64,000 bases of DNA from Erodium maritimum (lineage: Eukaryota > Streptophyta > Magnoliopsida > Geraniales > Geraniaceae), in the NCBI GenBank assembly GCA_963921825.1, contig OY997589.1, positions 81,700,523 through 81,764,522 on the forward strand. Direction: 5' to 3'. Below are positions 5,678 through 64,000 of the stretch, piece after piece. Both the position numbers and the translations under genes were made by a program. The notes below the pieces were generated by a model. The model had not been told where the DNA came from and ran no database searches. It worked only from the letters and a program-made list of their open reading frames with translations. Each line of letters begins with the position of its first letter. Within the stretch, counting starts at the first letter, position 1.

Positions 5678-5682
5678 AATAC

Positions 5683-5896: not shown

Positions 5897-5901
5897 AATA
5901 C

Positions 5902-7171: not shown

Positions 7172-7187
7172 ATCTATTTTCAGTTTA

Positions 7188-34733: not shown

Positions 34734-35648
34734 TATAAATTAATTACAATCCTTTACATTTCGGGTAAAGTCTATTTCATACATCAAAAAAAGTAAGGTG
34801 CATTAGTTCTTCTTTAATTTAGAGTTTCAAAATTCACTAAACATGATTTAATAAAATTTGGTACTAAAAAATATATTAACGATTCAATATAATTATTTAT
34901 ATGTGCTAATTTCTTTTGAAAGGTACATAAATTTATCTCCATTTCGTGTAAAAATATTCTTAATATGTTTTTGCATATTTTTATGTTAATAATATGTTCC
35001 ATCAGAATCACTAACACCTGGTATTAATGATGGTCAAACACTTTAATTTTACTTTTATATTTTATAAGTGGTTCTATAATGATTTGTTTTTCTTGTAGGA
35101 AAAAAAACACTCTTGTTATTTATATTTAAAAAATTAATAAACATATTATATAGTCTTTCAAAATAAAAATTATAGTTTGTTTTATGTTTTATATTTCATA
35201 AAATAAACCTCTAGAACTATATGAAAAATGGATTACTAAATCACCTTCAATTACTACATGATCCCTTTGATCACCCATAAAATGTATTTATGTGTAGAAA
35301 AATGCTTTATGAGTATAAAATTATCGTACATATTTCACAAAAATGCATTAATTATCTCGATCATATGGTTTGTTACCAATTAACTTTGAAAATATTTTAT
35401 TTAACAATCAGTGTATAAATTACATATTCTAATGATAGGAATGGTAGTATAATTTAATTAAATATTCTACAAAGCATAATCAAATTAATGTTCTTTTCCT
35501 TTTTCATGATTTTATATTTTAATTTTCAATTATCTTGAATTAAAATTGATAAATATCCATATATATAAATGCAACAAAAAAATTTGTTGAAACAGACTTA
35601 CGCACACCTATCACAATTCAATTCATTATATATCAGGATTCAACTATC
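34734..35648 (+). repeat. Tandem unit A (first part), peptide gene mostly lost
   Basis: The sequence aligns with units B (46050-47240) and C (62360-63575). It keeps the promoter-side ATTAATTACAATCCTTTACA block, a short end of exon 1 (TCACTAACACCTG at about 35008-35020), the intron and the 3' region. The signal-peptide part of exon 1 and nearly all of exon 2 are deleted, so the peptide gene is dead. The unit continues after the insertion at 42861. Confidence 0.8.
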
Positions 35649-35672
35649 ATAATACAATCAGGTGCGTAACCT

Positions 35673-38210
35673 TGTCACGCCTCAAAATCGGTTTTGACCG
35701 GACTCGAGACGTGACTTAAGTGAAACGATTTTAAATGCAATAATTCAACAGTAACTTCCTGAAAATCTCCAATATAAAACTCAGATCCACATAAGTCAGT
35801 TTAAAACATAAATAACCCTCCAGTGGTGTAATAATAATCCTCCAACAGCTTCGTTCAAAAAGACAAATAGAAAACAAAACATGTCCGAAATCTCTAATAG
35901 ACACCCACACCAAGAAGCTCCCGAGCCTCTATTCCTCAATCCTGCCTGTAATCACAACAATAAACTCATAGGGGTGAGCTTGCGCTCAGTAGAGAAAGTG
36001 CATAACAAGGTGACCATTAGGTCCAACAGTTGCTTAATCAAAATCCAGGGGATGAAGCTTGGCAATTAACAAGAAAGAGACAATTCAACAATGTCGTGGC
36101 ACGTGGAGTCACCACCCTCCGATCCACACCTAATGTGTCCTCTCGGATTTTCCCTCAGTTCAGAGGAGACGCATATCATTGAGGCTACAGGAAACAACCC
36201 CCTGAGGGCGCTTATCATCGGGATTCTCATAAACGCCTCCAAGGAACTATATGTCCTCGGGAACCAAGGCATAACTCCCATAAGAAGCATACTCTTGGGC
36301 AATTCAATGATATTCAAAAATAAAGAATAATACACTCAAGTAAACACTAAGTAATCAATCCTCAACGAGTCATACTTTCATCATAACACACAACACACGA
36401 ATCACATAACCTCAACTTACCGTTCACTTACCTGTTATGACCCTTCAGTCTATCGATCACCTGATTGTACCGCTCGGCACAACCAGTCATACTCGATTCA
36501 ACAACCAAAGGATCGCGCAAACATTTAATACAATCAACCATCATGTACAGTCAATCCATCAATCAAGTAAACCTTCAACTAAGCATTCAAGCATGCAATT
36601 CAACTAGTTTCATTAGACTCTTTAGCCTATCCACTAATCAACCAAACAACCAAACATGTGATCCTAACACACAACTAATCCGAGGGCCTTGCCAAGGCCA
36701 CTCTACCAGTAAAACAATTCCCAAGTATTGAAAGCGAGTTACACTAGTGATTGGCATCATAAGCATGCACTACTAGACACATCCGGTTATTAGAAATGTA
36801 AAGACAATTATTCTAGTTATTCGCATCTTATAGTCATTTCTAGGACCCTTCCGATTTTATTAGACTAACATGCATACTAAGCAATTAAACGAGAAGTTAA
36901 GACTTTCCCTACCTCGAGGTCTTCCTCTCAACACTCTAATGATAAGCCCGGTGGTCACCACTCCGTTCTTCACACGGGTTCCGGCGTGATCTTTGCTTCT
37001 CTAGCTCGGTCCCAAAGTCTTGGACACAAAGAAACGCTAATTAGATTCCACTTAAACAGCAAGCAAGACCCCCAAAGCCCTTCCAAAGTTCAGCTCAAAA
37101 CCAAGGTCAAACAAGGTGAAAAACCTTCAAAGAAACCCCCACCCTGCTCGGCCACGGACCTGGTCATGGACCCGTGACGCCAACCCTCACGGTTACCGTC
37201 ACGGAGCCGTGACGAGTGCCGTCACGGACTCCCTCACGGAGCCGTGACGTCGCCCGTCACAGGATCCGTCACGGATCCGTGGCGCTCCAGGGCAGTTTCG
37301 CCCTTCTTCAACCTCCAGCTCATTTTCTCCGAAAAACCACCTTCAAACCCCAAATTTTACCACTTCCAACTCCCAAAACAGTCAAATACTTCCAATACTC
37401 CTCTACCCATGGTAGGAATCAACAAATAAGCAAGTTTCTAATGATTCATCAAATCATAAACAACTCAAAAGCTCCAACAAACTAAGGATTTCCCACAAAA
37501 AACCCAACAAAGCTTCTCATCAACATCACCTCACACCATTTCCACTCAAATCCAACAACATCTAGCAATTTCAACCAAGACCCATGAAAAGAGATGAAGG
37601 GAAAAGAGAATTAGAGAGTTCCATTACCTCTAGGAGAGTGAGATGAATAAGATGGTGAGGATTTGGAGAAGGGATGGCTAGAGAAAGACTTCAAGTAGCC
37701 TCTTTTTCCTTGCTTCTTCTTCAAAGCTCCATAGGAGCTCCTCCCTCTTTCTTCTCCTCCAAATTTCGGCTACACCACCAAAAATGGGTTGGTTTTGCTT
37801 TTCCAAACTCATATAATACCTAGATGTGTTAAATGACTAAAAGTCCTTTAGCTAGAATCCCTTGTAGAAGCTTTTGGGAGGGTATAATGGTCCAAGACCA
37901 CTCCCCTTTCTCTCTTTCAACTAAAAAGGGACAAGTGTACAAGTAGGTTCTTTTAGTTTTCCAAAATAATTTCCAGCCCAATAAAATATTGCTTTAGTCG
38001 ATAAAAAGTCCCGTTTTGACTAAATTTGACTTCCTCCAACATTACACTCAAACGGAAGGAAATTATCCCCTTAAGCCAACCGTGATGACGGCTAAGTCGT
38101 TTGGGTTCCGGAAAAGCCCCGAGTGACTTCTTGAGTCATCGATTGACTTTTCCGGTAGAAAGTCAAACTTGCTTGAAAAGCCACCGGTTCGACCGGGAGC
38201 GGGTCTTACA
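35673..38210 (-). repeat. 3' LTR of the Tekay/Del-like element
   Basis: 2,538 bp with TG...CA ends, followed by the purine tract (complement of ATCTACCCCCCTTAA, 38211-38225). It contains a dense cluster of GTCACGG/CCGTGAC words at about 37165-37285. Confidence 0.85.
37165..37285. repeat. Palindromic CCGTGACGG-type word cluster inside the LTR
   Basis: At least eight occurrences of CCGTGACG, CGTCACGG or close variants occur in 120 bp, many as mirror-paired arms around CGGA(G/T)CCG. This may be a binding-site array in the LTR promoter or a hairpin-forming region. Confidence 0.75.
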
Positions 38211-38244
38211 ATCTACCCCCCTTAAAGAAATTTCGTCCTCGAAA

Positions 38245-41139
38245 TTAAAAACAAAGTACCTCAATGCCGAACAGGTGGGGATACTTCACGCGGATCTCAT
38301 CCTCGCGCTCACAAGTGGACCCTGCTCCCTGATGTCCCCACTGTACTAGTACCAACGGAATCGTCTTGTTCCGCAAGACCTTCTCCTTTGTACCCAAAAT
38401 CTCGACGGGCTGCTCCTCATAGGTGACATCATCAGCTACCTCGATGTCTGACCACTCAATAATGTGCGAAGGATCTGCCATGTACTTCCGCAGTTGGGAC
38501 ACGTGGAAGACGTTATGCACGTTCCCAAGCTGCGGTGGCAAAGCTAACCGGTAGGCTACAGCTCCAATCCTCTCTAAGACCTCAAATGGTCCAATGAAAC
38601 GCGGTGCCAGCTTGCCTCCGTTGCGGTTAAACCGCACTAGACCCTTCTTTGGGCTCACCTTCAGAAACACGTGCTCCCCGACCGTGAACTCAAGTGGTAT
38701 GCGACGTCTGTCTGCATAGCTCTTCTGCCGACTCTGTGCGGTCTTCAACCGCTCTCTAATCAAAGCGACCTTTTCGGTCGTCTCTCTGACCATGTCCGGT
38801 CCAAGTAAGCTCCGGTCCCCAACCTCAGCCCAACATACCGGCGATCTAGAAGGTCTGCCATACAAAGCCTCAAATGATGTCATACCAATGCTGGACTGGT
38901 AACTGTTGTTGTAAGCAAACTCTGCCAAAGGCAAATGAACCTCCCATGATCTCTGAAAGTCAAGAACACAAGCTCGAAGCATGTCCTCTAGAATCTGAAT
39001 GGTGCGTTCTGATTGTCCATCTGTCTCAGGATGGTAAGCTGTACTCAACAGTACCTCAGTGCCCAAAGCCTTCTGTAGACTCTTCCAGAACCTGGATGTG
39101 AAACGAGGGTCCCTATCAGATACCACTGACACTGTTACTCCATGTAGGCGAACAATCTCCCTGACATACAACCGACCCAACATGTCCACAGTATCAGTCA
39201 TCCTCATAGCTAGAAAGTGTGCCGACCTGGTCAGTCGATCAACCACCACCCAAACAGCATCGTGCCCCTTCGACGACCTTGGTAACCCACACACAAAATC
39301 CATAGTCACGTGCTCCCACTTCCACTCGGAGATCGGTAAAGGCTGTAGCAAGCCTGCGGGACGCTGATGCTCGTCCTTCACCTGTTGGCAGGTGAGGCAC
39401 CTGGAAACAAAGTCTGCAACTGCCCCACGCATCCCGCTCCACCAAAACTGTCGTCGCATGTCTCTATACATCTTGTTGCCGCCGGGTGCACAACCAGACG
39501 GGAGTGGTGGCACTCTCGCAATACGGTGTCTCTGCAATCGCTGGGCACAAACAACCGTCCTTTAAAACGGAGACCCTGATCGGTGCCCATCTCCTAACCC
39601 TCGAGCTTGACACCTTCGATCAATCTCTCACGAATCCCTGCTGTCTCGGCATCCTCGGTTTGTGCCTCAAGCACTCGAGCAAATAACGTGGGCTGAGCCA
39701 CCAAATCACATAAGGCCATACCATATGTGACCTCCTCCAACTCCATTCTGAATAAGCTTAACTGCTCCAGCATGTCCCACTCTCGGACAGCCATGCTAGC
39801 AACACAATGACTCGACTTCCTGCTCAAAGCATCGACGACGACATTCGCCTTTCCCGGATGATAGAGCAGCTCGAAGTCGTACTCTTCAAGTAACTCCATC
39901 CATCGCCTTTGGCACATGTTCAGATCGCGTTGTGAGAAGATATACTTGAGGCTCTTGTGATCTGAAAACACCCTGAACTGCTCACCGTACAGATAGTGTC
40001 TCCAACTCTTCAGTGCAAATACCACCGCTGCTAGCTCAAGATCATGGGTCGGGTAGTTGCGCTCATGCACTTTCAACTGCCTCGAGCCGTAAGCAACTAC
40101 CTTTTCACTCTGCATCATAACACAACCTAGCCCTTCGCCTGAGGCGTCACAATACACGTCATAGCCTACTCCCCGCTCTAGAACAATCAACACTGGAGTG
40201 GTAGTCAATCGATCCTTTAGCTCGCGGAAAGAGTGCTCACACTCATCCGTCCAAAGGTACTCTGCCCCCTTGCGGGTCAAAGCTGTCATAGGTGCTGCTA
40301 GACGCGAAAAATCCTGAACAAAGCGTCGGTAATAACCTGCCAATCCCAGAAAGCTCCGAATCTCAAATACACTACTGGGTCTGGCCCACTTCGACACTGC
40401 ATCAACCTTGGCTGGGTCGACCAATATGCCCTCTCTGGATACTACATGCCCGAGGAACTTCACCTCTATGAGCCAAAATTCGCACATCTCCAGATTCCCG
40501 TACAACTGGTGAGTGCGTAAGAGTGTCAAAACGGTCCTCAGATGCTCCTCATGCGCCTCCTCACTGGGCGAGTAAATCAAGATGTCATCGACAAAAACTA
40601 CTACGAACTGGTCCAGATAAGGTCTGGCCATTCATCAAGTCCATAAAGGCGGTTGGTGCGTTCGTCAAACCGAACGGCATCACCAGAAACTCAAAGTGTC
40701 CATAACGAGTCCGGAACCCTGTCTTCTCTACGTCCTCGGCTCGGACCCTCAGCTGGTAGTACCCCGATCGAAGATCGATCTTCGAGAAGTACTTTGCTCC
40801 CCTCAGTTGGTCGAGTAGATCATCAATCCTCGGCATCAGATAGCGGTTCTTTACTATCACCCGGTTCAACTTCCGGTAATCGATGCACATCCTCAAGGCT
40901 CCACCATTCTTCACGAAGAGGGCGGATGCTCCCCACGGAGATACGCTCGGGCGGATGAAACCCTTCTGCTGAAGTTCCTCGAGTTTTCGCTTTAGCTCGA
41001 CCAACTCGGCTGGCGCAAACCGATACGGCGTCATCGAGATCGGCGCCGTACCCGGGATCAGATCGATCCTTAACTCCACCTCGCGCGCTGGCGGCAAGCC
41101 TGATAGCTCCTCCGGGAAGACCTCCGGGAACTCGCGCAC
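38245..41139 (-). pseudogene. Gypsy pol remnants (RT, RNase H, integrase)
   Basis: Reading on -, frames carry reverse transcriptase sequence with [13 protein letters not shown], RNase H with [14 protein letters not shown], an integrase zinc region and core (CLTCQQVK, TMDFVCGLP, HPETDGQSERTIQ) and a C-terminal segment with HNVFHVSQLRKY typical of chromodomain-bearing Tekay/Del elements. It is a fossil and broken. Confidence 0.85.
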
Positions 41140-41174
41140 TACCCTCGATAGCTCCTCCGGGAAGACCTCCGGGA

Positions 41175-41988
41175 ACTCCTCTACCCATGGTAGGAATCAA
41201 CAAATAAGCAAGTTTCTAATGATTCATCAAATCATAAACAACTCAAAAGCTCCAACAAACTAAGGATTTCCCACAAAAAACCCAACAAAGCTTCTCATCA
41301 ACATCACCTCACACCATTTCCACTCAAACCCAACAACATCTAGCAATTTCAACCAAGACCCATGAAAAGAGATGAAGGGAAAAGAGAATTAGAGAGTTCC
41401 ATTACCTCTAGGAGAGTGAGATGAATAAGATGGTGAGGATTTGGAGAAGGGATGGCTAGAGAAAGGCTTCAAGTAGCCTCTTTTTCCTTGCTTCTTCTTC
41501 AAAGCTCCATAGGAGCTCCTCCCTCTTTCTTCTCCTCCAAATTTCGGCTACACCACCAAAAATGGGTTGGTTTTGCTTTTCCAAACTCATATAATACCTA
41601 GATGTGTTAAATGACTAAAAGTCCTTTAGCTAGAATCCCTTGTAGAAGCTTTTGGGAGGGTATAATGGTCTAAGACCACTCCCCTTTCTCTCTTTCAACC
41701 AAAAAGGGACAAGTGTCCAAGTAGGTTCTTTTAGTTTTCCAAAATAATTTCCAGCCCAATAAAATATTGCTTTAGTCGATAAAAAGTCTCGTTTTAACTA
41801 AATTTGACTTCCTCCAACATTACACTCAAACGGAAGGAAAGTATCCCCTTAAGCCAACCGTGATGACGGCTAAGTCGTTTGGGTTCCGAAAAAGCCCCGA
41901 GTGACTTCTTGAGTCATCGATTGACTTTTTCGGTAGAAAGTCAAACTTTCTTGAAAAGCCACCGGTTCGACCGGGAGCGGGTCTTACA
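41175..41988 (-). repeat. 5' LTR (partial) of the Tekay/Del-like element
   Basis: About 814 bp nearly identical to 37399-38210, ending at the same TCTTACA terminus. Only this part of the LTR is present. Confidence 0.85.
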
Positions 41989-42189
41989 ACCCTCGATTAC
42001 AATGTGAACCTGTGAACTCAACCACAATGCGACAAGTGTCGCGCTCAACAAATTTCTCCCCCATTTTTATAATAAAGTTTACTAATTTAATTATTCCTGC
42101 TTCGTTTCAACTCCGATTTATTTTTTTCTTGTGCCAATATTTTTTTTCAAGGGTTTCTAACAAGTAGTGTATTGAATATGTTTTTGATT

Positions 42190-42590: not shown

Positions 42591-42860
42591 GTATGTATCA
42601 TAGTTTTTTTTTGTACATGTCTTTTCTTGCTTCAAACCATATTAAATATGCTACTTAATAGATAGATCTTGGAAAAATAAAAATATTGGCGCAAGAAAAA
42701 ATTAAGTCGGAGTTAAAACAAAGCGGGAAAGATCAAATTGATAAACTTGATGGGAAAAAATGAGCATTTTCTGAGCGCGACACCTGGAACGTTGTGGTTG
42801 AGTTCGTAGGTTCACATTTTAAAAAGGGTTCGCACGTGATTGTCTCCCCGTATAACTATT

Positions 42861-43238
42861 GGTAAATATTTATTTTGTAGTAAACTAGAATCGATAAAAT
42901 CAAGGATCTGAACTCATTTTTATATAAAAAAATAATAGTAAAATAATGCTTAGATACAAGAAACCACACACAACGATCATCAAGTATTTGAATTTTATTC
43001 GCCATTCCATCTAACTATATGAAATTCAATCCTACCAGTCCCTTTTACCTATGTATGTCTATAAACAAGTACATTCTCGGTAAGGTAATCCCGTAATGAA
43101 TTTTCGATGGATAAATATTTTTCAAAATTATATGCATAATATCTATAACTGTAAACATAGAAGAGGTTTAGTTATAAGACCGTGTGACGATTCAAAAATC
43201 AAGATAAATATTTTAGAGAATTTTAACAACTAAACCAT
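42861..43238 (+). repeat. Tandem unit A (second part)
   Basis: This continues unit A after the insertion: GGTAAATATTTATTT, ACTAGAATCGATAAAATCA, then the ATAAGACCGTGTGACG block, all shared with unit C (63570-63890 and 61970 onward). Confidence 0.8.
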
Positions 43239-44514: not shown

Positions 44515-44890
44515 AACAACTAAACCATTAACATTATTATTTGAACGTATTTATAGTATTTGTATGTATAGAATATCATTTTATTTATATTTTATAAGAG
44601 TTAAATATACTTCAAAATTTTAAAATTATTTGCATGTTCCTTGGAAAACATGAATATTTTATTTGAAGTTATTGTATGTATTTTAATATAGATATTAGAC
44701 CTCGAGAATAAAATATTCTATTCAAATCGTCATCCTCCATTGTTTGGTTTAGTCAATGGGCTTCGTTCAGGTCAAATATGATGTAATCAAGAAATGAATT
44801 ATTGAAACAAAATAAAATACATGCATATAAACGTTAAAGTAAATTTGTTTAATATAAAGTTTGACGATAAAAATATTACGTTTTCTTTCT

Positions 44891-45917
44891 AGGGAAATTT
44901 GGAAATATATGCTTAACATAGCATATTTTTTTAGTATGCCACTATGATTCAATATTTGTAAATCTATGCTTTTGAAATATTTTAGGACAAAAATACCCTC
45001 ATTACTATTAGTTTAAATTTCAAAATAAATTGTATGTGAGAGGATTTGAACCATGGTTGTTCAAGAAAAAGTGTTTGGACTTATCCACTTGTGCTAAATT
45101 ACTTACATGTATTGTAGCCTTTTATTATTTTTTTTACTATACTTTATTATATACTAAGTTCTCGTACTACACCAAAATTTAAAATAAAAATATGAATAGT
45201 TGAAAAATACTTATGATGAACTCTGCACGTTTTGCAAATACTTACGGTGTACTGTTTTTATTACAAATACTTATAGTGTATTATTTTTCATGTGTTAAAA
45301 GTGTGAAAACTAACGGAAAATTGGGATTTTAGAGGGTGTACAACTTTAAAATTTTCAAAATAAATAAATAAATATGATGTGTATACCAAAATAAATAAAT
45401 AAATACTATTTAAAAATATATTTATATATATACATATTTATTTATTTTGAAAATTTTAAAGTTTTACATGCTCTAAAATCCCAATTTTCCGTTAGTTTTC
45501 ACACTTTTTTCACATGAAAAATAATATATAGTAAGTATTTTCAACAAAAAACAGTACACCGTAAGTATTTACAAAACGTGCAGAGTTCACCATAAGTATA
45601 TTTCAATTATCCGTATTTTTATTTTAAATTTTGCTGTAGTACGAGAACTTAGTATATAATAAAATATAGTAAAATAAATAATAAAAGGTTGTAATACATA
45701 TAAGTAATTTAGTACAAGTGGCTAAGTTCAAATATTTTTTTCTTGAACAACCATGGTTCAAATCCTCTCATATACAATTTATTTTGAGATTTAAAATAAT
45801 AATAAGGGTATTTTTGTCCTAATATATTTCAAAAGCATAGATTTACAAATATTGAATTATAGTGGCATACTAAAAAATATATGCTATGTTATGAAGCATA
45901 GATTTCCAAATTTCCCT
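44891..45917. mobile_element. 1,027-bp palindromic foldback element with tRNA-like motifs in both arms
   Basis: The ends are AGGGAAATTTGGAAAT and its complement. The two ~480-bp arms stay inverted copies through to an AT-rich centre near 45360-45440. TCTTTCT flanks both sides (44884-44890 and 45918-45924); unit C shows the uninterrupted site TTTTCTTTCTATT. Each arm carries an A-box-like TAGTACAAGTGG (45709-45720 on +) and a B-box GGTTCAAATCC (45755-45765 on +; complement at 45042-45052), as in a pol III/tRNA-derived SINE. No ORF. It sits about 460 bp upstream of the unit B peptide ATG. Confidence 0.82.
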
Positions 45918-46379
45918 TCTTTCTATTGCATCATAACATTCAATCAATAAAAAGTAAAAGTTATAATAAACTTTGATTGTATAAATTAACTCTTTATATT
46001 TCAGTTTACTGTTATTTATTGGGAGAAAATAAAATATAACGTTAAAAAAACATATAATATAAATTAATTACAATACTTTACATTTCATGTAGAGTTTATT
46101 TCATACATCTAACAAAAGTAAGGTGAATTACTTCTTCTTTGATTTAGAGTTCCAAAATTCGGTAAACGTGATTTTATAAAATTTGGTACTAAACAGTGCA
46201 TTAACGATTCAATGTATTTATTTATATGTGCTAACTTATTTTGAAAGGTACATATATCTATTTCTATCTTGTGTAAAAATATACTGAATATTTTTTTGCA
46301 GCTTTTTAAAGTTAATAATATGCTTTAAATGTATAATATAATAATATACATAATAGGGCTATTGTTATTATGATGCAGG

Positions 46380-46650
46380 ATGAAGATTTCAACGAAGCTT
46401 CAGTTACTAAATGTACTCTTCTTTTGTTTCATTTTATTTGCTCAAGCCCAATCGTCGGCGGTTTGGGAAGAAACATACCAACCACAATCGGCTCCATCCG
46501 AATCACTAACACCTGGTATTAATGACGGCCAAAAACTTTAACTTTATTTTTATATTTTATAAGTGGTTCTATAACGATTTGTTTTTTCTTGTAGGAAAAA
46601 AATACTCTTGTAAGGGTGCAGAAGGTTGTAGTAATCAGTGGTATAAGTGA
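46380..46650 (+). CDS. Small secreted peptide, two cysteines (unit B)
   Basis: Exon 1 (46380-46515) and exon 2 (46595-46650) join in phase 1 across a 79-nt GT..AG intron, giving 63 aa. Residues 1-24 are a strong signal peptide (MKISTKLQLLNVLFFCFILF then AQAQ). The middle is Pro/Ser/Glu-rich (ETYQPQSAPSESLTP). The C-terminus has GKKYSCKGAEGC, then SNQWYK and TGA, two Cys spaced by five residues. The ATG lies one base after a likely 5'-UTR acceptor (TATGATGCAG), which decides the start. The intron after the signal exon is as in plant cysteine-rich peptide genes. After the stop, another frame reads FGAGCCCICLKSA, so the ancestor may have been longer. I do not recognise the family. Confidence 0.6.
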
Positions 46651-47318
46651 TCATATAACTATTATAGTGAGTTTTGGAGCGGGGTGTTGTTGTATTTGTC
46701 TTAAATCAGCTTGATGCAACTAATAAATTGTTATTTACATTAAAATGTAAAAAATTAATAAACATATTATATAATCTTTCAAAATAAAAGTTATAGTTTC
46801 TTTTATGTTTTATATTTCATCGAATAAACCTATAGAAGTATATGAAAATGGATAACTAAATCACCTTCGATCACTACATAATCCCTTTGATCACCCATAA
46901 AACATATTTATGTGTAGAAAAATACTTTATGAGTATGAAATTATTGTACATATTTTACAAAAATGCATTAATTATCTCGATCGCATGGTATGTTATCAAT
47001 TAACTTTGAAGATATTTTATCAACAATCAGTGTATAAACCTAATGTGTCAATTTCCATAATTAAATATTGTACACAACATAATCAAATTAATGTTCTTTT
47101 CCTTTTTTTCATGATTTTATATTTTATAATTCAATCATCTTGAATTAAAATTGATAAATATCCAGATATAAATGCAAAAAAAAATTGTTGAAACAAACTC
47201 ACGCAGACCTATCAATATTCATTAAATATTAGGATTCAACTATCGGTAAATATTTATTTAACAGTAAACTAGAATCGATAAAATCAAGGATCTGAACTCA
47301 TTTTTATAAAACGGAATA

Positions 47319-48469
47319 GTAACCCGCATTGTTATTTCAATAAAATATTATAATTTATATATATATAATAACAATACTAATACAAAATTTGTTGTGTGGT
47401 CATGTTTGTAGAACTAAAGCAATGTCTTTTTCTTCGTTTACTGAACATACTAATACAAAATTTGTTCTTGTTTGATACCATGATAGAGTTTATAGCTTTT
47501 GTTAACTTGCTATTCCAACTTTTAAGATATTTGAGTTGTGATTGTGATTTAATATTGATATTGATATAAATGATAATCATGTATAATATAATTGTATCAC
47601 CTTATGTGTATGTAACACTGATTTTTTATTAAGGTTATATACTTTTTGGTACCTTTTTGTTTCGTCCACGAATGATTTGGTACCCTTTTGAATTTTTATT
47701 CCAATTTGATACCCTTATGTTCGGTCCACGAATGTTTTGAGTTAATGGGTTGAAAAACTAACAAAGTAATGTGAAATGACCATTTTACACTTATATTGAT
47801 TTAGTTGACTTTTGACTTTAATGTAAAATGACCATTATATCCCTAAGATGTAATTTCATCAATAATTTAATTAATTATTATTCAATAATAATTGGTTTCT
47901 TTATATTTTAATAAATTCTTATTAATTTTTTATTTATAAATTATAAATTTAATATTATTTTATTCAGTTCATCAAAAAAAATCAAACGAGCTTCAGTACA
48001 ATCAGTTCATAAAAAAAATCAGTTCCTCTTTTCCACCGAGCTTTAGTACAACAACAACACAGATCTGAAAATTTCTAGAATCAAAATTTTTCCATAATCA
48101 ACACAGAAATCAAACGCCCTTGCCGGAGAATTTCCGACGAGGGTTGAAATCGAAACCCCAAAATTTCCAGATGAACGATGAACAGAAATCGATAAAAATC
48201 AAAACATAAACATTTCAAAAATCTCTTAACACATTTCAAAAATCTCTAATCTCAGTCGAAAAAGAAAAAAGAAGCCCAAAAACTCGAGTTAGATTGGCTA
48301 CGATTTCAGGTGAGCTCGTCGTCGTTACAGATCTGGGTTTGGCCAACGAAGACGCGGCGTTCCAGATCCCTCGTTCCAGGTCACCGCCCGTGCTCGTAAA
48401 GTCGTCGTCGCCGCCATGGGCCACTGAAGACGGGGTTTTAGCATACCCTCTTTAACGTACTTCCGTACA
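47319..48469. other. AT-rich DNA with a repeat-like block
   Basis: 47650-47745 holds two copies of a GTCCACGAATG-containing unit (near 47669 and 47719). On -, 48424-48236 is a 62-codon frame starting MAHGGDDDFTSTGG of no known family. It may be a non-autonomous element, but its ends are not defined. Confidence 0.35.
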
Positions 48470-49408: not shown

Positions 49409-49884
49409 TGTTAGAATTTAGGGATTAAACAACTAATAAACCCTAAATCATATTTCTATAAAAGCTTTGTTGAATTAAAAGGAACACACAAATAAATAAC
49501 AGCGGAATTTTTACTTACTTAATGCCATTGATGAACGATGAACGAAGAATCTCCAAGTTGTATTTTGGTCTTCCAATAAAGTAGACGCTCTCTAATTTGG
49601 TTATTCTCTCAGATGTGGGTGAAACAGAATAAGAGATAACACGTCTATTTATTGGGGACCATAACCACAACAACCCTAATTAGGTTTCCAAGTTTATATA
49701 ATTTGTTATTCGGCCCCTCAACAATTAACAAATTATGAATCCGGTATCTACACATTAAATAACATGATAATATATATGATACCTATGATACAATACTTTA
49801 AATTGGTCACTTTAATTTGTATCCACCTTTATGATAACATGTACATTAAATTACATATGTGCCCAATAGGATTTTAATCCAACA
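49409..49884 (-). repeat. 3' LTR of the Copia element
   Basis: 476 bp ending TTTTAATCCAACA, next to the purine tract on its right. Confidence 0.92.
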
Positions 49885-50272
49885 ATCTCCCACTTGGGCA
49901 ACATATGTTTTTCCCGACAAATGTACAACCTTATGAGCTCAAAATTGTTATCACATAATAGGTATCCTGTAACAATCTCGTCCATCAACCATACTCATAT
50001 AGAACCAAAGCAGCAGTCATCAAATTACTTATGACTAAACCATCAATGATCACATATACAAATATAGCTAAACGACGTAGATCAATCATGGATGTGTAGC
50101 ATGAAAATAACATGCAATGTGATCCGACATGTCTATTTCCAACTGGTCCTCCTTAAACTTAAGTGAGGTCAATAACCAAAATAGAATGCATGAACTGAAT
50201 ACTTTATTTCTGATCAGAATATATCCAAATACTTTAACTTTAAACATAAAGCAATCAAAATACAAACTCCCA

Positions 50273-52207
50273 CTAAACCAAAATATCCTCAAGTGATATA
50301 ACACCCATATGAGCAGTGTGCTCATGAAAGACCTTGGGTGGTAAACCTTTTGTGAGCGGATCCGCTATCATGGAGTTTGTCCCAATATGCTTTATGGATA
50401 TTTGTCCATTTTGCACTTTTTCTTTCACAACAAGGAACTTTATGTCTATATGTTTAGACTTTGATGAGCTCCTGTTGTTGTTGGAATATAAAACTGCTGA
50501 GTTATTGTCACAAAATAAATTTAGTGGTCTTTCAACATTTTCCAAAATGCGCAGCCCAGTGACAAAGTTTCGCAGCCATATTCCATGGTTCGATGCCTCA
50601 TAGCATGCTACAAATTCTGCTGCCATAGTTGAAGAAGCTACTAGTGTTTGTTTAACACTTTTCCAAGATATAGCTCCTCCAGCCAATAAGTAAATGTAAC
50701 CTGATGTAGACTTTCTGCTATCTTGGCACCCAGCAAAATCAGAATCTGAATACCCAATAACCTCCAAGCGATCTGATTTCATGTAAGTGAGCATGTAATG
50801 CTTTGTCCTCTTTAGATATCTCATAACCCTCTTGGCTGCTATCCAATGGTCCATACCAGGGTTGCTTAGATATCTGCCTAACATCCCAACAATATACACT
50901 ATATCTGGACGCGTACATACTTGAGCATACATTAGACTCCCAACAGCTGATGCATAGGGAATCTCTTGCATTTTCTGAATCTCAAGGTTATCTTTAGGAC
51001 ATTGTGCAAGACATAATTTGTCTCCTTTAGCCACAGGGGTGTCACCTGGTTTACAACCTTCCATGCCAAACCTTTTAAGTACCTTATCGATGTAGCTCTT
51101 TTGTGATAATCCAAGAACGCCTCGAGATCGATCTCGGTGTATTTGGATTCCTAAAACAAAAGAGGCGTCCCCAAGATCTTTCATCTCAAAATGAGCAGAT
51201 AGAAATTTCTTGGTTTCATGCAATAACCCTACATCATTAGTGGCAAGTAATATGTCATCGACATACAAAACCAGGAACATATACTTACTCCCACTGAACT
51301 TGTGATACACACAATCATCAACCATATTTGTCTCAAAACCGAACGAGACAATTACTTTGTGAAATTTGTGGTACCATTGACGGGAAGCTTGCTTGAGTCC
51401 ATAGATGGATTTCTTTAATTTACAAACCATTTTCTTTGGGTCACCGAACTCAAAGTTTTCTGGTTGTACCATATACATTGTTTCTTCAATGTCACCATTG
51501 AGAAACGCAGTCTTAACATCCATCTGATGCAACTCAAGATCAAGATGAGCGACAAGTGCCATAATTATCCTGAAAGAGTCTTTCGATGAAACCGGAGAGA
51601 AAGTCTCTATAAAGTCAATGCCTTCCTTTTGAGTATAGCCTTTAGCTACAAGACGTGCCTTATACTTTTCCACATTACCATTTCCATCCCTCTTGGTTTT
51701 AAAAATCCATTTACAACCAATTGGTTTCGTACCTTCAGGTAATGGGACAAGTTCCCCAACTTTATTGTCTTGCATAGACTTATACTCTTCTTGCATGGCA
51801 TCAATCCATTTTAGAGAGTTTGAACTTTTCATGGCTTGAGGAAAGTTGATTGGATCATCTTCCCTTATTCCATCCTCGCGTTCTTGGAGAAATATGACAT
51901 AATCATCTGGAATAGCACTTCTCCTCTCTCTTGTAAATCTCCTTAGTGGCACATGTTGTTGAGGTAGTTGAATTTGTTCTTCTGGAACAACTATTTCAGC
52001 CTGAATGGGGAGTTGTTCAACATTGTCTTGTTGAGGCTCCGGATTCACTTCTTGATCAATGACAGGTGTATGATCCTGAACATTATCAAAAGTGATAATA
52101 GGAATTGAGTTTGACGTCATTTCCTCCTCAAAGACAATGTTTCTAGCCTTATTCCCCCCCCCCCCAAATTCAACATCCTCAAAAAAATGCTGCAATTGCC
52201 GCCTCAA
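50273..52207 (-). pseudogene. Copia reverse transcriptase and RNase H region
   Basis: The - frame contains LEWIDAMQEEYKSM-like entry sequence, KTAFLNGDIEETMYM, the catalytic FLVLYVDDILLATND, and the RNase H part YSDSDFAGCQDSRKSTSGY with the DPLTKGLP end typical of Copia pol. It is part of a fossil element. Confidence 0.9.
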
Positions 52208-53981
52208 AAATGTTTTTGTTTATGGGATCATAAAACTTATACCCTCTAGAGTGCTCAGAATAACCAATAAAGTAGTTGCTTACAGTTTTGGAGTCCAATT
52301 TCTTTTCTTGCGGCCTGCAAGGCATTGCCTCGGCTGGACATCCCCATATATGAAAATGCTTTAAACTAGGCTTTCGACCTGTCCAAAGCTCATAAGGTGT
52401 TTTTGCAACTGCTTTACTTAGTACTCTGTTTAGAATATAAGCTGCTGTCTTTAGTGCTTCTCCCCAGAGAGACTCGGGTAAGGTAGAATGAGCAATCATA
52501 CTCCTTACCATGTCCTTAAGAGTCCTATTTCTTCTTTCAGCTACACCATTCATGCTAGGCGATCTAGGCATGGTGTACTGCGGAACGATACCACATTCCT
52601 CTAGGAATTTAGCAAATGGACCTGGACGTTGTTCTCCTGAGCCATCATACCTACCGTAGTACTCACCACCACGATCAGATCTGACTTTCTTAATTCTGAG
52701 GTTGAGTTGATTCTCAACCTCAGCCTTATAAGCTTTGAACACGTCCAAAGACTGAGATTTTTCATGAATGAGATATAGGTACCCAAAACGTGAGTAATCG
52801 TCTATGAATGTTATGAAATATTGTTGACCATTCCAAGAAGCTGTAGGGAATGGCCCACAAATATCCGTATGAATCAATTCTAAGATGCCTGATGATCTGT
52901 TGGCACCTAATCTCTTTGTTTTGGTCTGTTTTCCCTTGATGCAATCAACACAAACTTCAAAATCTGTGAAGTCGAGTGATTCCAGAATTCCATCAGACAC
53001 AAGGCGTTCCATTCTACCTTTTGAGATATGACCTAAGCGCTTATGCCATAATGATGATGAAATTTCCTTATTTAATTTGCGTTTAGTGCCCCGTGATTCC
53101 ACATGCAAGGCTTCATTGTAAGATGCAATCGTTTCCAACAAGTAAAGGTTGTCATAAGCACTTAAATAACCGGTCCCGATAACATTTGAATCAAAAGAAA
53201 AACTTAACTTCCTGTTTCCAAATGAACAAAAATATCCCAACTTGTCCATTAAAGGAACAGAAACCAAATTCCGTCTCAAAGACGGTACCACAAAAGTGTC
53301 TTTTAAATCCAAATAGAAACCGGTTGTTAACAACAACCTAAAATGTCCAATTGCTTCCACCTCCACCGATTTTCCATCGCCCACATAGATGTTTATTTCA
53401 ACATCACTTGGCTTTCGGTGACTCAGACAACCTTGCATAGAAACACTTATGTGGGCAGTGACAGCCGAATCCATCCACCAAGTGTTTCTAGGCACTGAAG
53501 CTAAATTAACCTCAGAACAGACCAAAGAAAAATTCTCACTTTTCTTTGCAGCTTGAAACTGAACTTTATCGTTTTCAGCAAAACGATGTTCGATTTCGTC
53601 AAGGAAATCTTTGGCCTTAATAATCCTTTCGGATTCCTTTCCTCTAAAGGCTTCTGGAATAGTGTGTTTCATTATCATGAGACACATGCAGTTTGAACGT
53701 TCCCACCTCTCAAAAAACCCTTTCTCATCATATGAGCCTTTTGCAGTGAGAAGTGTGGATTGTTCTCCCCTTAACGCAAGGTCCATATTCATGAAACCTA
53801 GCACTATTTCTAAATGTCCTTTCCAATCCTTAAAATTTGTACCATTAAACATAGGTATAGAATCGATGTTAGCAGATATCGACACAGCAGAATAATTGTC
53901 TGAAATGTAACAAAGCAAGTAAAACAAGCTCACGTCAAAATCCTGAGTAAACAATAAATTCAAAATAATGGTGACTCCCAT
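52179..53981 (-). pseudogene. Copia gag, protease and integrase region
   Basis: The - frame starts with a gag region ([20 protein letters not shown]) and continues through a protease-like segment and the GAG-pre-integrase domain ([18 protein letters not shown]). The integrase core follows ([46 protein letters not shown]). It is part of a fossil element. Confidence 0.9.
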
Positions 53982-55114
53982 CTCAAGATACCAAACGCTA
54001 CATTAATGTCTATCCTTTGGGCATATCAACATTAACAACAAGCGGTACTCTTGGTGCAGTAATCAAACATTGACAATAAAAATATGCCAAACAAACACCT
54101 ATCTTTGGACCAGTGCATTGCTCACATAAAAATTGCTCACATTGAACACCTTATAATTGTCACACATTTATCACCGCAGTTGTCATATGAAATTCGGCCA
54201 AATATTAACTCGCCTTTGGGTCCGTTAATAAACGCATGAATAACAAAGACAAACAAATTCATCTTGATATTTTAATTAAACTAATCTACACAAAAGAGGT
54301 CACTTTGGCGACATTATGTTTCAATTAATTTACAAAATACCAGACATCACCAAAATATGAATTTAATCGTTTCCGAAAAACTAAATTCGTACAATCATAA
54401 TTATGCCGAACTAAGACTTTATATGATTATACTAGGAGCTAATTATATACACATCCGATATATATATATATATAACTTTATAATATAAAAAAAAACATAC
54501 CACAGTATGTCTACCATGAATTCAGAACTCATGTAACCGAATATTACATTCAATGTAATCAATGACAATTAACATTATCATTCAATGTTTGATTTCATAA
54601 TAAATATAAAATCATGCCTTATATAAAACTTCAAAAGATATCCATCAACCACGTGACCTTTAATTAACCACTTTGATTGAAGATTAACAAGTCAGAGACA
54701 TAATACTCCATATTCTAACCAATTATATTATATATAAGGCTATGGCTCAGTGACTTGAATCTATACAATGAACTAATACCAAATTAATTCATTCCCAGAG
54801 TACAGGCACCCGTATAAGACAAGAAAGAAAAAAAAGGTTTAAATCTTTTTTTTTCTTTTTTTTAATCAAACCAATGTGCGGAGACTTCAACAAACATACT
54901 TAATACTCACGAAACAGTATTAGATTTCAGAGAAAGGTCCCACACAAAACCGGCATCACTTATTCAATAACAATGATTTGAGTAGGAACACAGTACCGGT
55001 TTCACTCAGCAGAGTTCCAAAGCATCGACCATCGATATAATATTCACGAAACAAATCACCAAAACATATTTCATGAATCAAAATATCGTATTCACAATTA
55101 ACCCAACAAAGAAA

Positions 55115-55126
55115 GCTCTGATACCA
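55115..55126 (-). other. Copia primer-binding site (initiator Met-tRNA)
   Basis: The complement reads TGGTATCAGAGC, the classical plant Copia primer site, one base inside the 5' LTR. Confidence 0.9.
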
Positions 55127-55127
55127 C

Positions 55128-55604
55128 TGGTTAGAATTTAGGGATTAAACAATTAATAAACCCTAAATCATATTTCTATAAAAGCTTTGTTGAATTAAAA
55201 GGAACACACAAATAAATAACAGCGGAATTGTTACTTACTTGATGTCATTGATGAACGATAAACGAAGAATCTCCAAGTTGTATTTTGGTCTTCCAATAAA
55301 GTAGACGCTCTCTAATTTGGTTATTCTCTCAGATGTGGGTGAAACAGAATAAGAGATAACACGTCTATTTATTGGGGACCATAACCACAACAACCCTAAT
55401 TAGGTTTCCAAGTTTATATAATTTGTTATTCGGCTCCTCAACAATTAACAAATTATGAATCCGGTATCTACACATTAAATACCATGATAATATATATGAT
55501 ACCTATGATACAATACTTTAAATTGGTCACTTTAATTTGTATCCACCTTTATGATAACATGTACATTAAATTACATATGTGCCCAATAGGATTTTAATCC
55601 AACA
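55128..55604 (-). repeat. 5' LTR of the Copia element
   Basis: 477 bp, about 98.5 % identical to the 49409-49884 copy. Confidence 0.92.
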
Positions 55605-58600: not shown

Positions 58601-58916
58601 AAATAGTAGCTGAAGTGGACAACCAACACCCTCCAGTCTTCAGCTTCTTCCTCTGCTCTGATCGCAGCATCATGGGGCTCATCTTCCTCTTATTCTTTTT
58701 GGTCTTCTTCCCAGATGGTATAGAAGTAGACTCATCAACCACTGCAACTCTAGGAAGCACGGTCCCACAAAAAGGGTCAGGTACTACATGTACAGATGAT
58801 ATGCTCAACCGGGGTGACCTCTTCGGATGTCTCATGGAGAAGACTGTGCTAGTCCTCCCACTACTCACGGTGACTGTCCTATCCTTCACATCTATGGAAG
58901 TTGTCGCCAAGAAAGG

Positions 58917-59969
58917 TCAGCCCAATATGAGAGGTACATGCAGGTTCTCAGGGAAATCCATGACAAAAAAGTCAGTAGGAAACATAAGTCCTCCAACCCT
59001 CACCAATATGTCCTTTACGACACCTGCTGGTCTAGACATAGATTTGTCAGCCAACTGTAGAGTAAAATTTGCGGGTTGTAGATCACCCAACCCCAACCTC
59101 TTGTATAGAGATAGTGGCATCAAGCTAACGCCTGCTCCCAAATCACAAAGAGAAATAACAAAATCAGACACTCCGAATAACACTGGGACTGTGAAACGCC
59201 TAGGGTCTCGTTCCTTGAGTGGAATGGTACATCTAATAATGGAGCTACTGTCCGGACCCATAATAACATGCTTGCCATTCATATATGGGGTCTCCTTCTC
59301 TCTTCCAATAAAACTATCTCTAAGAAGGGTTAAAGATGTCGGTGTCTTCTCTAACAATCTAATCATGGGGACATTAGCCTCTTTCTTCTTCATATAGGCC
59401 AAAAAGGCCAAGAAATATTTGCTAGCACATCTTGGCTTTGTCCTCCTATCTTCTGCTCTCACAAAAATATTAGGATTACCATGGCCATCAGAGCCAATGG
59501 CATCCACTACAAATATCCCTCTCCGGGGATCATCAATTAATGTAGTTTCTATAGAATCACTGACCCTCCCAACGTGGTCCATAATATCATCACATTTAAC
59601 AGGCAATGAAACTACTAAGCTACCAACTCTCAAATCATCAGCAGATAAATCAACAGAAGCATGCACACCAGCATCAATATCAACATGTATTTAATCAACA
59701 ATAGGATTGGCTAACACATGGAGCAATGGATCAATAAAATATGAATCAAGCATGCTAGTACTCTCGTGTAGGTAAGAAGTGTGGTTAGAAAACACATGAG
59801 TACCATAAAAAGCTACCTCAGCTAGCATCTTAGCATGATCCTTTTGAATTTGAAACTGATCCCTCAACAACTTATCTCTGAAGTCATTCCATTCATCGAT
59901 CTCATCCGGATCTATGGCAGCCTGTATTGCAACAATAATAGTCTTAAGTGTAACATCGGTCTTAGCCAT
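58917..59969 (-). pseudogene. Tat/Athila-type gag end and aspartic protease remnant
   Basis: The - frames contain VPVLFGVSDFVISLCDLGAG, then SLMPLSLYKRLGLGDL and FFVMDFPENLHVPLILG, the family's retropepsin region, preceded by gag-like sequence (59691-59969). It is a fossil and broken. Confidence 0.7.
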
Positions 59970-60129
59970 ATACTTATCAAGGGCTGCTTGAGGATCATCT
60001 TCATCTGAATGTAATCAACCTATTATTTATAAATCAAGTAAATTTTAAGTGCAATTTTGTTGGATTTTACTTTTAATCTTCTTTTTACATATGATATTTT
60101 CTTATCAAGGTGATACAACTATATTTAAT

Positions 60130-61966
60130 CATTCATTTTTTCGGGTGATGAGAACAGAGTAGGGAATCCCATCCTCTGTGGTGTGAGATCAGGGCGGGGA
60201 ATAAAATCCATGTTCCCTGCGGGGACGGGGCGGGTGGCAGGGACACGGGACAGGGACGAGGCCTTGGGTCCCCTCCCCATTTCCATCCCTATTCAGCACT
60301 CTGTCGCCTCCGTTGGTCCGAGATCATCTTCGAGGAAAGGCTCTCATGTCTGAACCGGAGAATGAGGAACCGAGGCGGAGGGAACTAGAGGCCCTTTGCG
60401 AGCGGATCTGGGCTCCCAATGCTGACCGTGTTCCTGTGATTCCGGTGCTACTCTCCTCACCTTAGGGTATGATCCACCATCGTAGGACCTTCAAATAGAA
60501 AGAAACTAGATCCACCTCGAAGGCTCCAGTTCTGCCGGTGTCTCTAGACTCGCATCTGATCAGAAACCAAGATGGTCTCTCGGCCTACTCCTTATAGGAG
60601 GAAGAAGGAGTAGAGGTGGAGGTATCGTATGCGCCGGTGAGTCCATCGAGCCTGACTCGACAACAATTTTCCATGATGGGAAAATTGTGAACCACCAACC
60701 CACTCCATAAGGAGGTTCTTCTTAAGATCACCATTAAGGCGTGGGGGAAGTCGGTCGAAGGTCTGGTAATCAAGGACATCAGCCCAGGAATCTTCGGGTT
60801 TTACTTTGAAACAAAGATAACCCGTGCATGGGTTCGAGGGAACGACTGTGGTGCTTCGGTGGAAGGCCACTTCTTTTGGGTAACTTGGACCTGCTCGCTA
60901 GGGAGCCTCTCACTTTGGATTGACTGCAACTATGGGTACATGCCCATTGAATTCCCCCGTTGGTACAGACCAAGACCATAGGAGAGACGATCGGTTCGAC
61001 TCAAGGATTGTGTGTTTATGTCCCATGTGACCAATTGGGCACATGCTGGGGAGGAACAATGAATGTCATATTTTGGCACCTTGTGGAGCGTCCTCTTCGT
61101 CGACAGTTTCTGCTTCGTTTTCGGAAATTTCCCGACCCGGTTTGTGCCACAACTATACAAAACTGCTATTTTTTTGTTTTAATCGTGGTATGATCGGTCA
61201 CATGGAAGCCGAATACGACCAAGAGGTGGTGGGTACTCTACGGTTCGACTACTCTATCCTGGAGTTCCAGAAGGATCGTCAAACCAAGACATATGCAACA
61301 GATTGGGACGGTCAAGCGTCCCGTAAATCGATATCATCGACTTCTGCACCTAAGGGCCCCTTGTCTCACGGTAGGGGTCTGATAATATGCCCAACTACTA
61401 CACCTAACTGTGCGTGTCCTCGGAGCGTCCCTCAGACCCGCTCGGTCGATCCGGGCTGGAAGAAGTTGGTTATTGGCCAGCTCTCTAGTAGCAGGAAAGT
61501 CAACACTCTGGATCTGCTTGGGCACAGAGGTAGAAATGGACTTAGAACTGGAGTTGAGTTTGGTATTGGAGCAGGAGCCAGAGAGTGAAGAGGGGGTCCA
61601 CTAGGAACCCTAGGAAGATCAGGATAGGGCGGGGAAACAACACCGCACAGAGGAATGAAAGGAATACATTGATCTAGGGATAGACCTTAGGAGAGGTCCT
61701 TGGAAAGAGTTCTGCCTCCGTTAGAAACTGATGACAACATATTCGGTCGCACTCTATAGAGTATGCAACAGCTAGGCAATAGCTTGAGCCGTAGTCATTG
61801 GCTTCGTCATAGTTTAGCTTTTATTTCAGTTCGTCTTTATGGCTCCTCAAACTCCGCACGTGTCGGTTCACTTGTCTCATAGTTATGTGTAGAAAGACCT
61901 TCGGACTCGATATCATGTAATGACTTTTTTAATTAATAATATATGAGTACCTTTTAGTAAAAAAAA
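60130..61966 (+). mobile_element. Decayed retroposon with DUF4283-like ORF1
   Basis: It opens with a G-rich head (60140-60270), then a + frame with MSEPENEEPRRRELEALCER at 60347. At about 60690-60950 a DUF4283-like segment reads WGKSVEGLVIKDISPGIFGF then ETKITRAWV. A zinc-knuckle relic follows near 61136-61225 (NYTKLLFFCFNRGMIGHMEA, aligned to CxxCGxIGH). The 3' end CTTTTAGTAAAAAAAAAA abuts unit C exactly at 61967. The tail string is shared with 22170-23040. There are a dozen or more stops. No endonuclease or reverse transcriptase is seen. ORF1 of plant LINEs binds nucleic acid; this copy is dead. Confidence 0.6.
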
Positions 61967-63889
61967 AATATAAGACTGTGTGATGATTTAAAAATAAAGA
62001 TAAATACTTTAGAGAATTTTAACAACTGAACCATTAACCTTATTATTTGAACGTACTTTTAGTATTTCTATGTATAAAATACCACGGTTTTGTTTGGTCC
62101 ACGGGCTTCGTTCAAGTCAAATCTAATATAATCATGAAATATTGGAACAAAATAAAATATATCTCGTATAACCGTTAAGGAAAATTTGTACAATATAAAG
62201 TTTGACGATAAAAATATTATGTTTTCTTTCTATTATATCATAACATTCAATCAACAAAAACTAAACGTTATACTAAACTTTAATTATATAAATTAACTCT
62301 TTATATTTCAGTTTACTATTATTTATTGAGAAAAGATAAAATCTACTGTTAAAATAAAACATATGATATAAATTAATTATCATCCTTTACATTTCATGTA
62401 GAGTCTATTTCATACATCTAACAAAACTAAGGTGAATTACTTCTTCTTTGATTTAGAGTTCCAAAATTCAATAAACGTGATTTTATAAAATTTTCTACTA
62501 AAAATACATTAATGATTCAATATAATTATTTATATGTGCTAATTTGTTTTGAAAGGTACATATATCTATTTCTATCTTGTGTAAAAATATACTGAATATT
62601 TTTTGCAGTTTTTTAAAGTTAATAATATGCTTTAAATGTATAATATAATAATATACATAATAGGGCTATTGTTATTATGATGCAGGATGAAGATTTCAAC
62701 GAAGCTTCAGTTACTAAATGTACTCTTCTTTTGTTTCATTTTATTTGCTCAAGCCCAATCGTCGGCGGTTTGGGAAGAAACATACCAACCACAACCGGCT
62801 CCATCCGAATCACTAACACCTGGTATTAATGACGGCCAAAAACTTTAACTTTATTTTTATATTTTATAAGTGGTTCTATAACGATTTGTTTTTTCTTGTA
62901 GGAAAAAAAATACTCTTGTAAGGGTGCAGAAGGTTGTAGTAATCAGTGGTATAAGTGATCATATAACTATTATAGTGAGTTTTGGAGCGGGGTGTTGTAT
63001 TTGTCTTAAATCAGCTTGATGCAACTAATAAATTGTTATTTACATTAAAATGTAAAAAAATAATAAACATATTATATAATCTTTCAAAATAAAAATTATA
63101 GTTTCTTTTATGTTTTATATTTCATCAAATAAACCTCTAGAAGTATATGAAAAATGGATAACTAAATCACTTTCGATTACTACATAATCCCTTTTATCAC
63201 ACCCATAAAACGTATTTATGTGTAGAAAAATACTTTATGAGTATGAAATTATTGTACATATTTTACAAAAATGCATTAATTATCTCGATTGCATGGTATG
63301 TTATCAATTAACTTTGAAGATATTTTATCAACAATCAGTGTATAAACCTAATGTGTCAATTTCCATGATAGGAATGGTAGTATATTTTAACTAAATATTG
63401 TACAAAGCATAATCAAATTAACGTTCTTTTCCTTTTTTTTGTGATTTTATATTTTTAAATTCAATTATTTTGAATTAAAATTGATAAATATCCACATATA
63501 AATTCACCAAAAAAAATCTTGAAACATACTCATGCAAACCTATCACAATTAGTTATATATCAGGATTTAATTATCGGTAAATATTTATTTAGCAATAAAC
63601 TAGAATCGATAAAATCAATGATCTGAAATCATTTTTATAAAACGTAATGGTAAAATAATGCTTAGCTACAAGAAACCACACACAACGATCATCAAAGATT
63701 TAAATTTTATTCGTCATTCCATCTAGTTATATCAAATTCGATCCTACCACTCCCTTTTACCTATGCATGTCTATAAACAATTACATTCTCAATAAGGTAA
63801 TCTCGTAATGACTTTTCGATGGATAAATATTTTTCAAAATTATATGCATAATATCTGTTACCGTACACATAAAAGACGTTTAGTTATAA
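61967..63889 (+). repeat. Tandem unit C
   Basis: The most complete unit: ATAAGACTGTGTGATG, AACAACTGAACCATTAAC, the TTTGACGATAAAAATATTA promoter side, the peptide gene and the 3' region, until ATAAGACCATGTGA starts the next copy. The distance between equivalent TTTTCTTTCTATT sites in C and D is about 1.76 kb. Confidence 0.85.
62687..62921 (+). pseudogene. Small secreted peptide gene (unit C), frameshifted in exon 2
   Basis: Exon 1 (62687-62822) matches unit B with one coding change (Ser to Pro in the QSAP segment), keeping the same signal peptide, donor and 79-nt intron. Exon 2 starts at 62902, but the A-run after the acceptor has eight A rather than seven. The frame shifts to GKKILL and stops at 62919-62921, losing both cysteines. 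The downstream alternative frame also has one Cys codon fewer than B. The predicted product is 51 aa. It could be a pseudogene, or an A-run sequencing error could hide an intact gene. Confidence 0.6.
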
Positions 63890-64000
63890 GACCATGTGAA
63901 ATATTGGAACAAAATAAAATATATGTCATATAACCGTTAAAAGAAATTTGTACAATACAAAGTTTGAACATGAAAATATTATGTTTTCTTTCTATTGTAT
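63890..64000 (+). repeat. Tandem unit D, start only
   Basis: TGAAATATTGGAACAAAATA through TTTTCTTTCTATTG repeats the promoter side of unit C, with about 170 bp missing between ATAAGACCATG and TGAAATATT. The window ends before its peptide exon. Confidence 0.8.

Follow-up and report, generated by a model that had tools for sequence, protein, structure and literature searches.

The 64,000-nucleotide stretch of Erodium maritimum DNA analysed here, referred to as the window (C2:81700523-81764522), carries a tandem array of a 1.8-kb unit, one copy of which holds an open two-exon gene, gene B, for a small precursor protein. Gene B is one of a family with 27 or more loci, spread over chromosomes 1, 2, 3, 5, 7 and 8, and 16 of these have an intact two-exon model. 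The family falls into two subfamilies, subfamily I, which includes the window's copies, and subfamily II, in which the C-terminal tail is under strong purifying selection. We propose, with a probability of about 0.55, that this is a dispersed gene family for small secreted prepropeptides, each of which would yield a short signal-type peptide with a ring closed by two cysteines. As far as searches of Pfam, the PDB and the literature reach, the family is new and its genes are of a known kind.

Gene B and its relatives in the genome

The original prediction described four copies of one unit in the same orientation, each complete copy holding a two-exon gene with a signal peptide. Self-comparison confirmed four copies (A to D) of the 1.8-kb unit at 34734-64000, all in the same orientation, and the unit written backwards, as a control, gave 0 matches. 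The two-exon precursor with a signal-like start is likewise supported. Gene B, in unit B, is open over 46380-46650 (136 nt of coding sequence, a 79-nt phase-1 intron and a further 56 nt) and encodes a precursor of 63 residues, MKISTKLQLLNVLFFCFILFAQAQSSAVWEETYQPQSAPSESLTPGKKYSCKGAEGCSNQWYK. Its first ~23 residues, judged by eye, are hydrophobic and end in AQA before QSS, a junction of the sort usually expected at a signal peptidase site. In subfamily I the start codon is directly preceded by a splice-acceptor-like sequence (for example at 46366-46379 in the window), and a similar one lies upstream in subfamily II, so that an intron in the 5' untranslated region is possible. The other three units bear out the birth-and-death that had been read from the array. 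In unit A the gene is lost: exon 1 lacks its start and little of exon 2 is left. The gene of unit C, which starts at 62687, has a longer run of A at the start of exon 2, and exon 2 is therefore frameshifted. The gene of unit D, past the window, is broken too, with a TAG in exon 1 and again a longer A-run that shifts the frame of exon 2. This A-run, next to the splice acceptor, is longer in the broken copies A, C and D, the second chromosome 5 copy and one subfamily II copy than in the intact ones; it is either a mutational weak point or a homopolymer error of the assembly.

The genome (763 Mb in 40 contigs) was searched with DNA and protein queries, and the locus counts are lower bounds. The description as a tandem array holds at the window, but the family is not purely local, since 23 of the 27 loci lie outside the array; besides gene B, this genome has 15 further intact copies. 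A copy was called intact if it had an ATG, a phase-1 GT-AG intron, KK and two cysteines 3-6 residues apart. This rule picked 15 of the 27 loci, and a sixteenth, at C7:6.10 Mb with cysteines 7 apart, was added by hand; the spacing is 5 in the other 15. Exon 1 measures 130-139 nt and coding exon 2 53-59 nt across the family.

Subfamily I comprises 13 loci, four in the window's array, two on chromosome 5 near 61.43 Mb, four on chromosome 2 at 20.85-20.90 Mb, two on chromosome 1 (20.60 and 35.97 Mb) and one on chromosome 3 (1.97 Mb). Seven of them are intact, on chromosomes 1, 2 and 5; the broken ones are A, C, D, the second chromosome 5 copy, one chromosome 2 copy and the chromosome 3 copy. Subfamily II comprises 14 loci, six on chromosome 7 (6.1-6.67 Mb), seven on chromosome 8 (two at 13.9 Mb, three at 29.95-30.0 Mb, one at 23.08 Mb and a relic at 11.09 Mb) and one on chromosome 1 (133.9 Mb). 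Nine are intact, the broken ones being the chromosome 8 copies at 29.98, 30.0 and 23.08 Mb, the relic and the chromosome 1 copy. A degenerate exon-2 pattern, allowing at most one mismatch, matched the genome at 19 places, against 10 for the reversed control. The 14 exact matches are all known loci; the five one-mismatch places, with no family exon 1 just upstream, were taken for chance and not for distant members. One of the five, at C2:15.94 Mb, reads GKKHSCSG and may nevertheless be a stray family fragment. Further protein queries of the genome gave no convincing additional locus.

Constraint on the tail and what the peptides may do

The intact copies have in common a hydrophobic N-terminal segment ending in (A/V)QA, a spacer with (Y/W)EET(F/Y)QPQ, an identically placed intron and a 17-19-residue tail that starts with GKK and holds two cysteines. 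An alignment of 10 of the 16 intact copies is invariant at, among other columns, QPQ, GKK, the S preceding the first cysteine and both cysteines. Subfamily II proteins are 55-62% identical to gene B, with the intron at the same place, and most end in GKKYSCRGSELCTLGPW. Between the subfamilies, DNA matches stay within the gene, four covering exon 1 only and one spanning the intron from exon 1 into exon 2.

Of the 13 subfamily II loci in which the tail survives, broken ones included, 12 spell YSCRGSELCTLGPW; the exception is the divergent copy at C7:6.10 Mb. Synonymous and nonsynonymous variants were counted in eight of the nine intact subfamily II copies, with that divergent copy left out, and in the seven intact copies of subfamily I, there without codons 1-2 and everything after the second cysteine. 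These tests are rough, in that they ignore the tree, count base changes singly and use copies picked by a rule requiring KK and two cysteines. In the subfamily II tail (the last 17 codons) there are 8 synonymous and 0 nonsynonymous variants (P 6e-6; expected nonsynonymous share 0.78). The spacer has 3 synonymous and 7 nonsynonymous variants (P 0.36), the signal part 4 and 3 (P 0.05) and the whole coding sequence 15 and 10 (P 5e-5). On these counts the family codes for protein, and the part under constraint is the tail. In subfamily I, residues 3-46 lean to constraint (14 synonymous, 24 nonsynonymous, P 0.04), and residues 3-58 have 17 and 35 (P 0.058). The pairwise ratio of nonsynonymous to synonymous change (dN/dS) in the tail is 1.45 in subfamily I and 0 in subfamily II. 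We do not claim positive selection in the subfamily I tail, since its variant count does not differ from neutrality. The original description of the peptides as fast-changing thus applies to the window's subfamily I only, and fails for subfamily II with its nearly invariant tail.

Roles in defence, pollen-pistil recognition or signalling had been suggested for peptides of this kind, and the last is the one that we propose. The precursor would enter the secretory path and the signal would be removed after Ala. A protease may then cut near the KK pair, and the two cysteines may close a small ring, C-x5-C, or C-x7-C in one copy. The resulting short apoplastic peptide would signal, probably via a cell-surface receptor, as the CTNIP/SCREW peptides do. 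Subfamily II would keep one ligand, and subfamily I would have a relaxed or diversifying tail and a turnover by tandem duplication, probable gene conversion and transposon damage. More tentatively, the genes may be an undescribed family of cyclic plant peptide hormones, with a fixed ligand, YSC-RGSEL-C-TLGPW, in subfamily II and an arm, subfamily I, in which the ring and tail diverge while the spacer, GKK and cysteines are kept and ligand specificity evolves by birth-and-death in tandem arrays. If the proposal of a secreted signal-type peptide is true, one more family of small secreted peptides is known, its candidate active part, of 14-17 residues, is within easy reach of synthesis, and its conserved arm can be set against its diverging arm as a natural comparison; the broad view of how plants signal by peptides would be unchanged.

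Several points weigh against a family of secreted signal peptides. Cleavage at KK and the disulphide are guesses from the sequence, and the signal peptide was judged by eye. The agreement on the phase-1 intron, KK and two cysteines is partly built in, as the rule for intact copies demands them. Of the 27 loci, 11 are broken or truncated. The subfamily I tail, counted as far as the second cysteine, has 3 synonymous and 11 nonsynonymous variants (P 0.57), that is, no constraint, and gene B may accordingly be decaying.

The last point leads to a possibility that we regard as doubtful for now, namely that the window's array is a relic drifting to loss, in which gene B is open by recency and has no present function. 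Three of the four array copies are broken, and the subfamily I tail without detectable constraint, together with the P value for residues 3-58, is in line with such drift. In bins of 100 columns, gene B and broken C are 98-100% alike across the ~500 bp that include the gene (46315-46808), 94-99% alike in the adjoining bins and 85-91% alike towards either end of the unit, a pattern expected of recent gene conversion. C and the chromosome 5 copy are evenly 93-99% alike, and B compared with the chromosome 5 copy has a similar peak, 96-99% over the same bins and 86-93% at the ends. Probable local gene conversion into B is the simplest reading of these comparisons; had the gene merely been under constraint, the intron and the 3' side should have kept less of their likeness. 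Against a relic stand the seven of 13 subfamily I loci that are intact and the lean to constraint in residues 3-46. A relic in the window is compatible with function elsewhere in the family, so that its odds overlap with those of the other readings.

It is unlikely, in our judgement, that the products are secreted antimicrobial or anti-herbivore peptides, the tail acting directly on microbes or pests and subfamily I being caught in an arms race. The small size, signal-like start, two cysteines, tandem arrays and many broken copies would suit such peptides, and Pfam gives matches to two models, all of them below cutoff: LEAP-2 in three of the 10 members (best E 0.025, over residues 6-31, mostly the signal segment) and the defensin-like PF25052, AtDEF-like, in four of the 10 (best E 0.087; 13.5 bits for gene B against 25 required). 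Nothing scored above the Pfam cutoff for gene B, one relative or 10 of the 16 intact members. However, the tail holds only two cysteines, and so little change as the subfamily II tail shows is more to be expected of a receptor ligand than of an arms race. A part in reproduction, as pollen-pistil or pollen-tube recognition peptides, seems more improbable still. Secreted cysteine peptides in fast-turning tandem arrays serve so in other plants, but the known groups of that kind have more cysteines and nothing in these data points to flowers.

The array, its history and neighbouring features

The coordinates of the units, of gene B and of the inserted elements are collected in Table 1. That transposon insertions separate the copies is borne out by the placing of Gypsy-type and Copia-type long terminal repeat (LTR) retroelements and a palindromic element. 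The element that splits unit A is called Gypsy type because it has integrase and Tf2-1-like domains, and the palindromic element is presumably of the Mutator-like foldback type. When the sequence was extended past 64000, as had been advised, unit D was found in pieces up to the equivalent of window position 69154, that is, 5.2 kb past the window, and the 20 kb following the window gave no unit match besides these pieces. Upstream of the array there are a MULE transposase frame (17592-18956, minus strand) and a DUF1985 frame (11340-12329, plus strand).

Table 1. Units of the array, exons of gene B and inserted elements, in window positions
Feature	Position	Strand	Remarks
Unit A, three collinear pieces	34734-34996, 34998-35116, 35113-35648	+	Unit C positions 281-543, 714-833, 947-1489
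Gypsy-type LTR retroelement splitting unit A	37397-41989	-	LTRs 37397-38211 and 41175-41989, 98.65% alike
Unit A, downstream end	42853-43184	+	Unit C positions 1482-1810; behind the LTR retroelement
Unit B, start	44742-44891	+	Unit C positions 1-146
Palindromic element inside unit B, 1025 bp	44892-45916		Terminal inverted repeats GGGAAATTTGG..; perfect 9-bp target duplication TTCTTTCTA
Unit B, remainder	45917-47322	+	Unit C positions 138-1567
Gene B, exon 1	46380-46515	+	Signal-like segment, then QSSAVWEETYQPQSAPSESLTP segment
Gene B, intron	46516-46594	+	79 nt, GT-AG, phase 1; same aligned place in other intact copies
Gene B, exon 2	46595-46650	+	(G)KKYSCKGAEGCSNQWYK, then stop
Copia-type LTR retroelement between units B and C	49409-55604	-	LTRs 98.5% alike; target-site duplication TAAAT
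Unit C, complete, 1810 bp	62087-63896	+	
Unit D, start	63897-64000	+	Runs on beyond the window

In a tree of 24 loci, all but A, the chromosome 3 copy and the chromosome 8 relic, B and C group with the first chromosome 5 copy, and D with the second. Window positions 61118-64413 are collinear with positions 4830-8094 of the chromosome 5 stretch (3.3 kb, 92% identity), and the two-unit tandem is therefore older than that duplication. For the subfamily I unit the genome search, which passed over very common words, gave 36 matches, none of them more than ~15 kb from a family gene. A duplicated gene segment is thereby made more likely than a transposon, but is not proven. We set aside, as highly improbable, a mobile element carrying a captured gene: copies on six chromosomes, the collinearity with chromosome 5 and a few weak, partial matches far from family genes among the 41 of the subfamily II unit (for example C7:65.21 Mb, C7:5.10 Mb and C1:29.04 Mb) would agree with one, but the 36 subfamily I matches do not, and the extent of the matching stretches differs from copy to copy.

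The genome survey also gave an observation on the plastid. The plastid contig, C40, has an rbcL that is that of a flowering plant and, among PDB sequences, nearest to the tobacco one; it is followed on the opposite strand by frames that we take to be rps18 and rpl33. A Carboxyl_trans search gave no match on this contig, so that the plastome may be rearranged and lack accD. The nuclear accD of Campanulaceae has an intron, a point taken against Platycodon as the source plant. In the nuclear genome the same search gave three long Carboxyl_trans frames without interruption, of 689-757 residues, at C6:58387284, C6:58409779 and C8:8148271. They are perhaps copies of homomeric acetyl-CoA carboxylase that stand in for a missing plastid accD.

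Comparison with known systems

The original prediction recognised no family, and the Pfam and PDB searches, profile search included, name none. A sequence search of the PDB, up to E 10, gave 28 matches (best E 0.0017) and no plant peptide among them; almost all are to antibody light chains, aligned from residue 15 on, and were taken for likeness to a leader peptide. Searched by profile, the PDB gave three matches (best E 0.4), again without a plant peptide. Eleven distinct family peptide fragments occur in no paper of the library searched by full text, a weak negative in that figures and supplements lie outside such a search. Topic searches found no such family named in the accessible parts of the literature (a review and a survey).

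The AtDEF-like proteins are a kind of small secreted cysteine peptide. Membership in the defensin-like family PF25052 was rejected on the score below the Pfam cutoff and on the presence of only two tail cysteines. EWR1 (At3g13437) has a 70-residue precursor with a predicted signal peptide and is encoded by two exons with a small intron, only in Brassicaceae, according to the accessible part of its description (PMC3914955); its exons are 97 and 116 bp and its intron 87 bp, and three homologues have two adjacent cysteines (PMC3914955). EWR1 and the present family thus share a small two-exon precursor gene with a small intron, but the coding exons of gene B measure 136 and 56 nt and its cysteines are 5 apart (5 or 7 across the family), and membership was rejected. 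As to the general kind, the short open reading frame and signal-like start are those of a small secreted peptide gene, and a constrained C-terminal peptide is found in subfamily II and not in subfamily I.

The family resembles the PROSCOOP genes in its signal peptide (by eye here), its 2-3 exons and its tandem clusters. A conserved SCOOP motif at the C-terminus is a further mark of PROSCOOP. In Brassicaceae, PROSCOOP/SCOOP genes have 2-3 exons, a signal peptide and two tandem clusters with transposon remains, are limited to that lineage and have defence and root roles, as far as the accessible text goes (PMC6382344). The same text notes the absence of cysteine from the precursor (PMC6382344), whereas all 10 aligned rows of the present family have two tail cysteines, and membership was rejected. 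The CTNIP phytocytokines, for which we take SCREW to be another name and which are perceived by the receptor HSL3 together with BAK1, are like the family in their short signal-like precursor and two-cysteine C-terminal part. In the accessible parts of the CTNIP study (PMC9191895), a short precursor with a signal peptide has two conserved C-terminal cysteines that are needed for activity and receptor binding, and candidates were filtered for cysteines 9-11 residues apart (PMC9191895). The spacing of 5, or 7 in one copy, lies outside that range, and membership was again rejected. By anatomy, the CTNIP peptides and the PROSCOOP clusters would be the closest analogues of the present family, and the likeness to either does not amount to membership.

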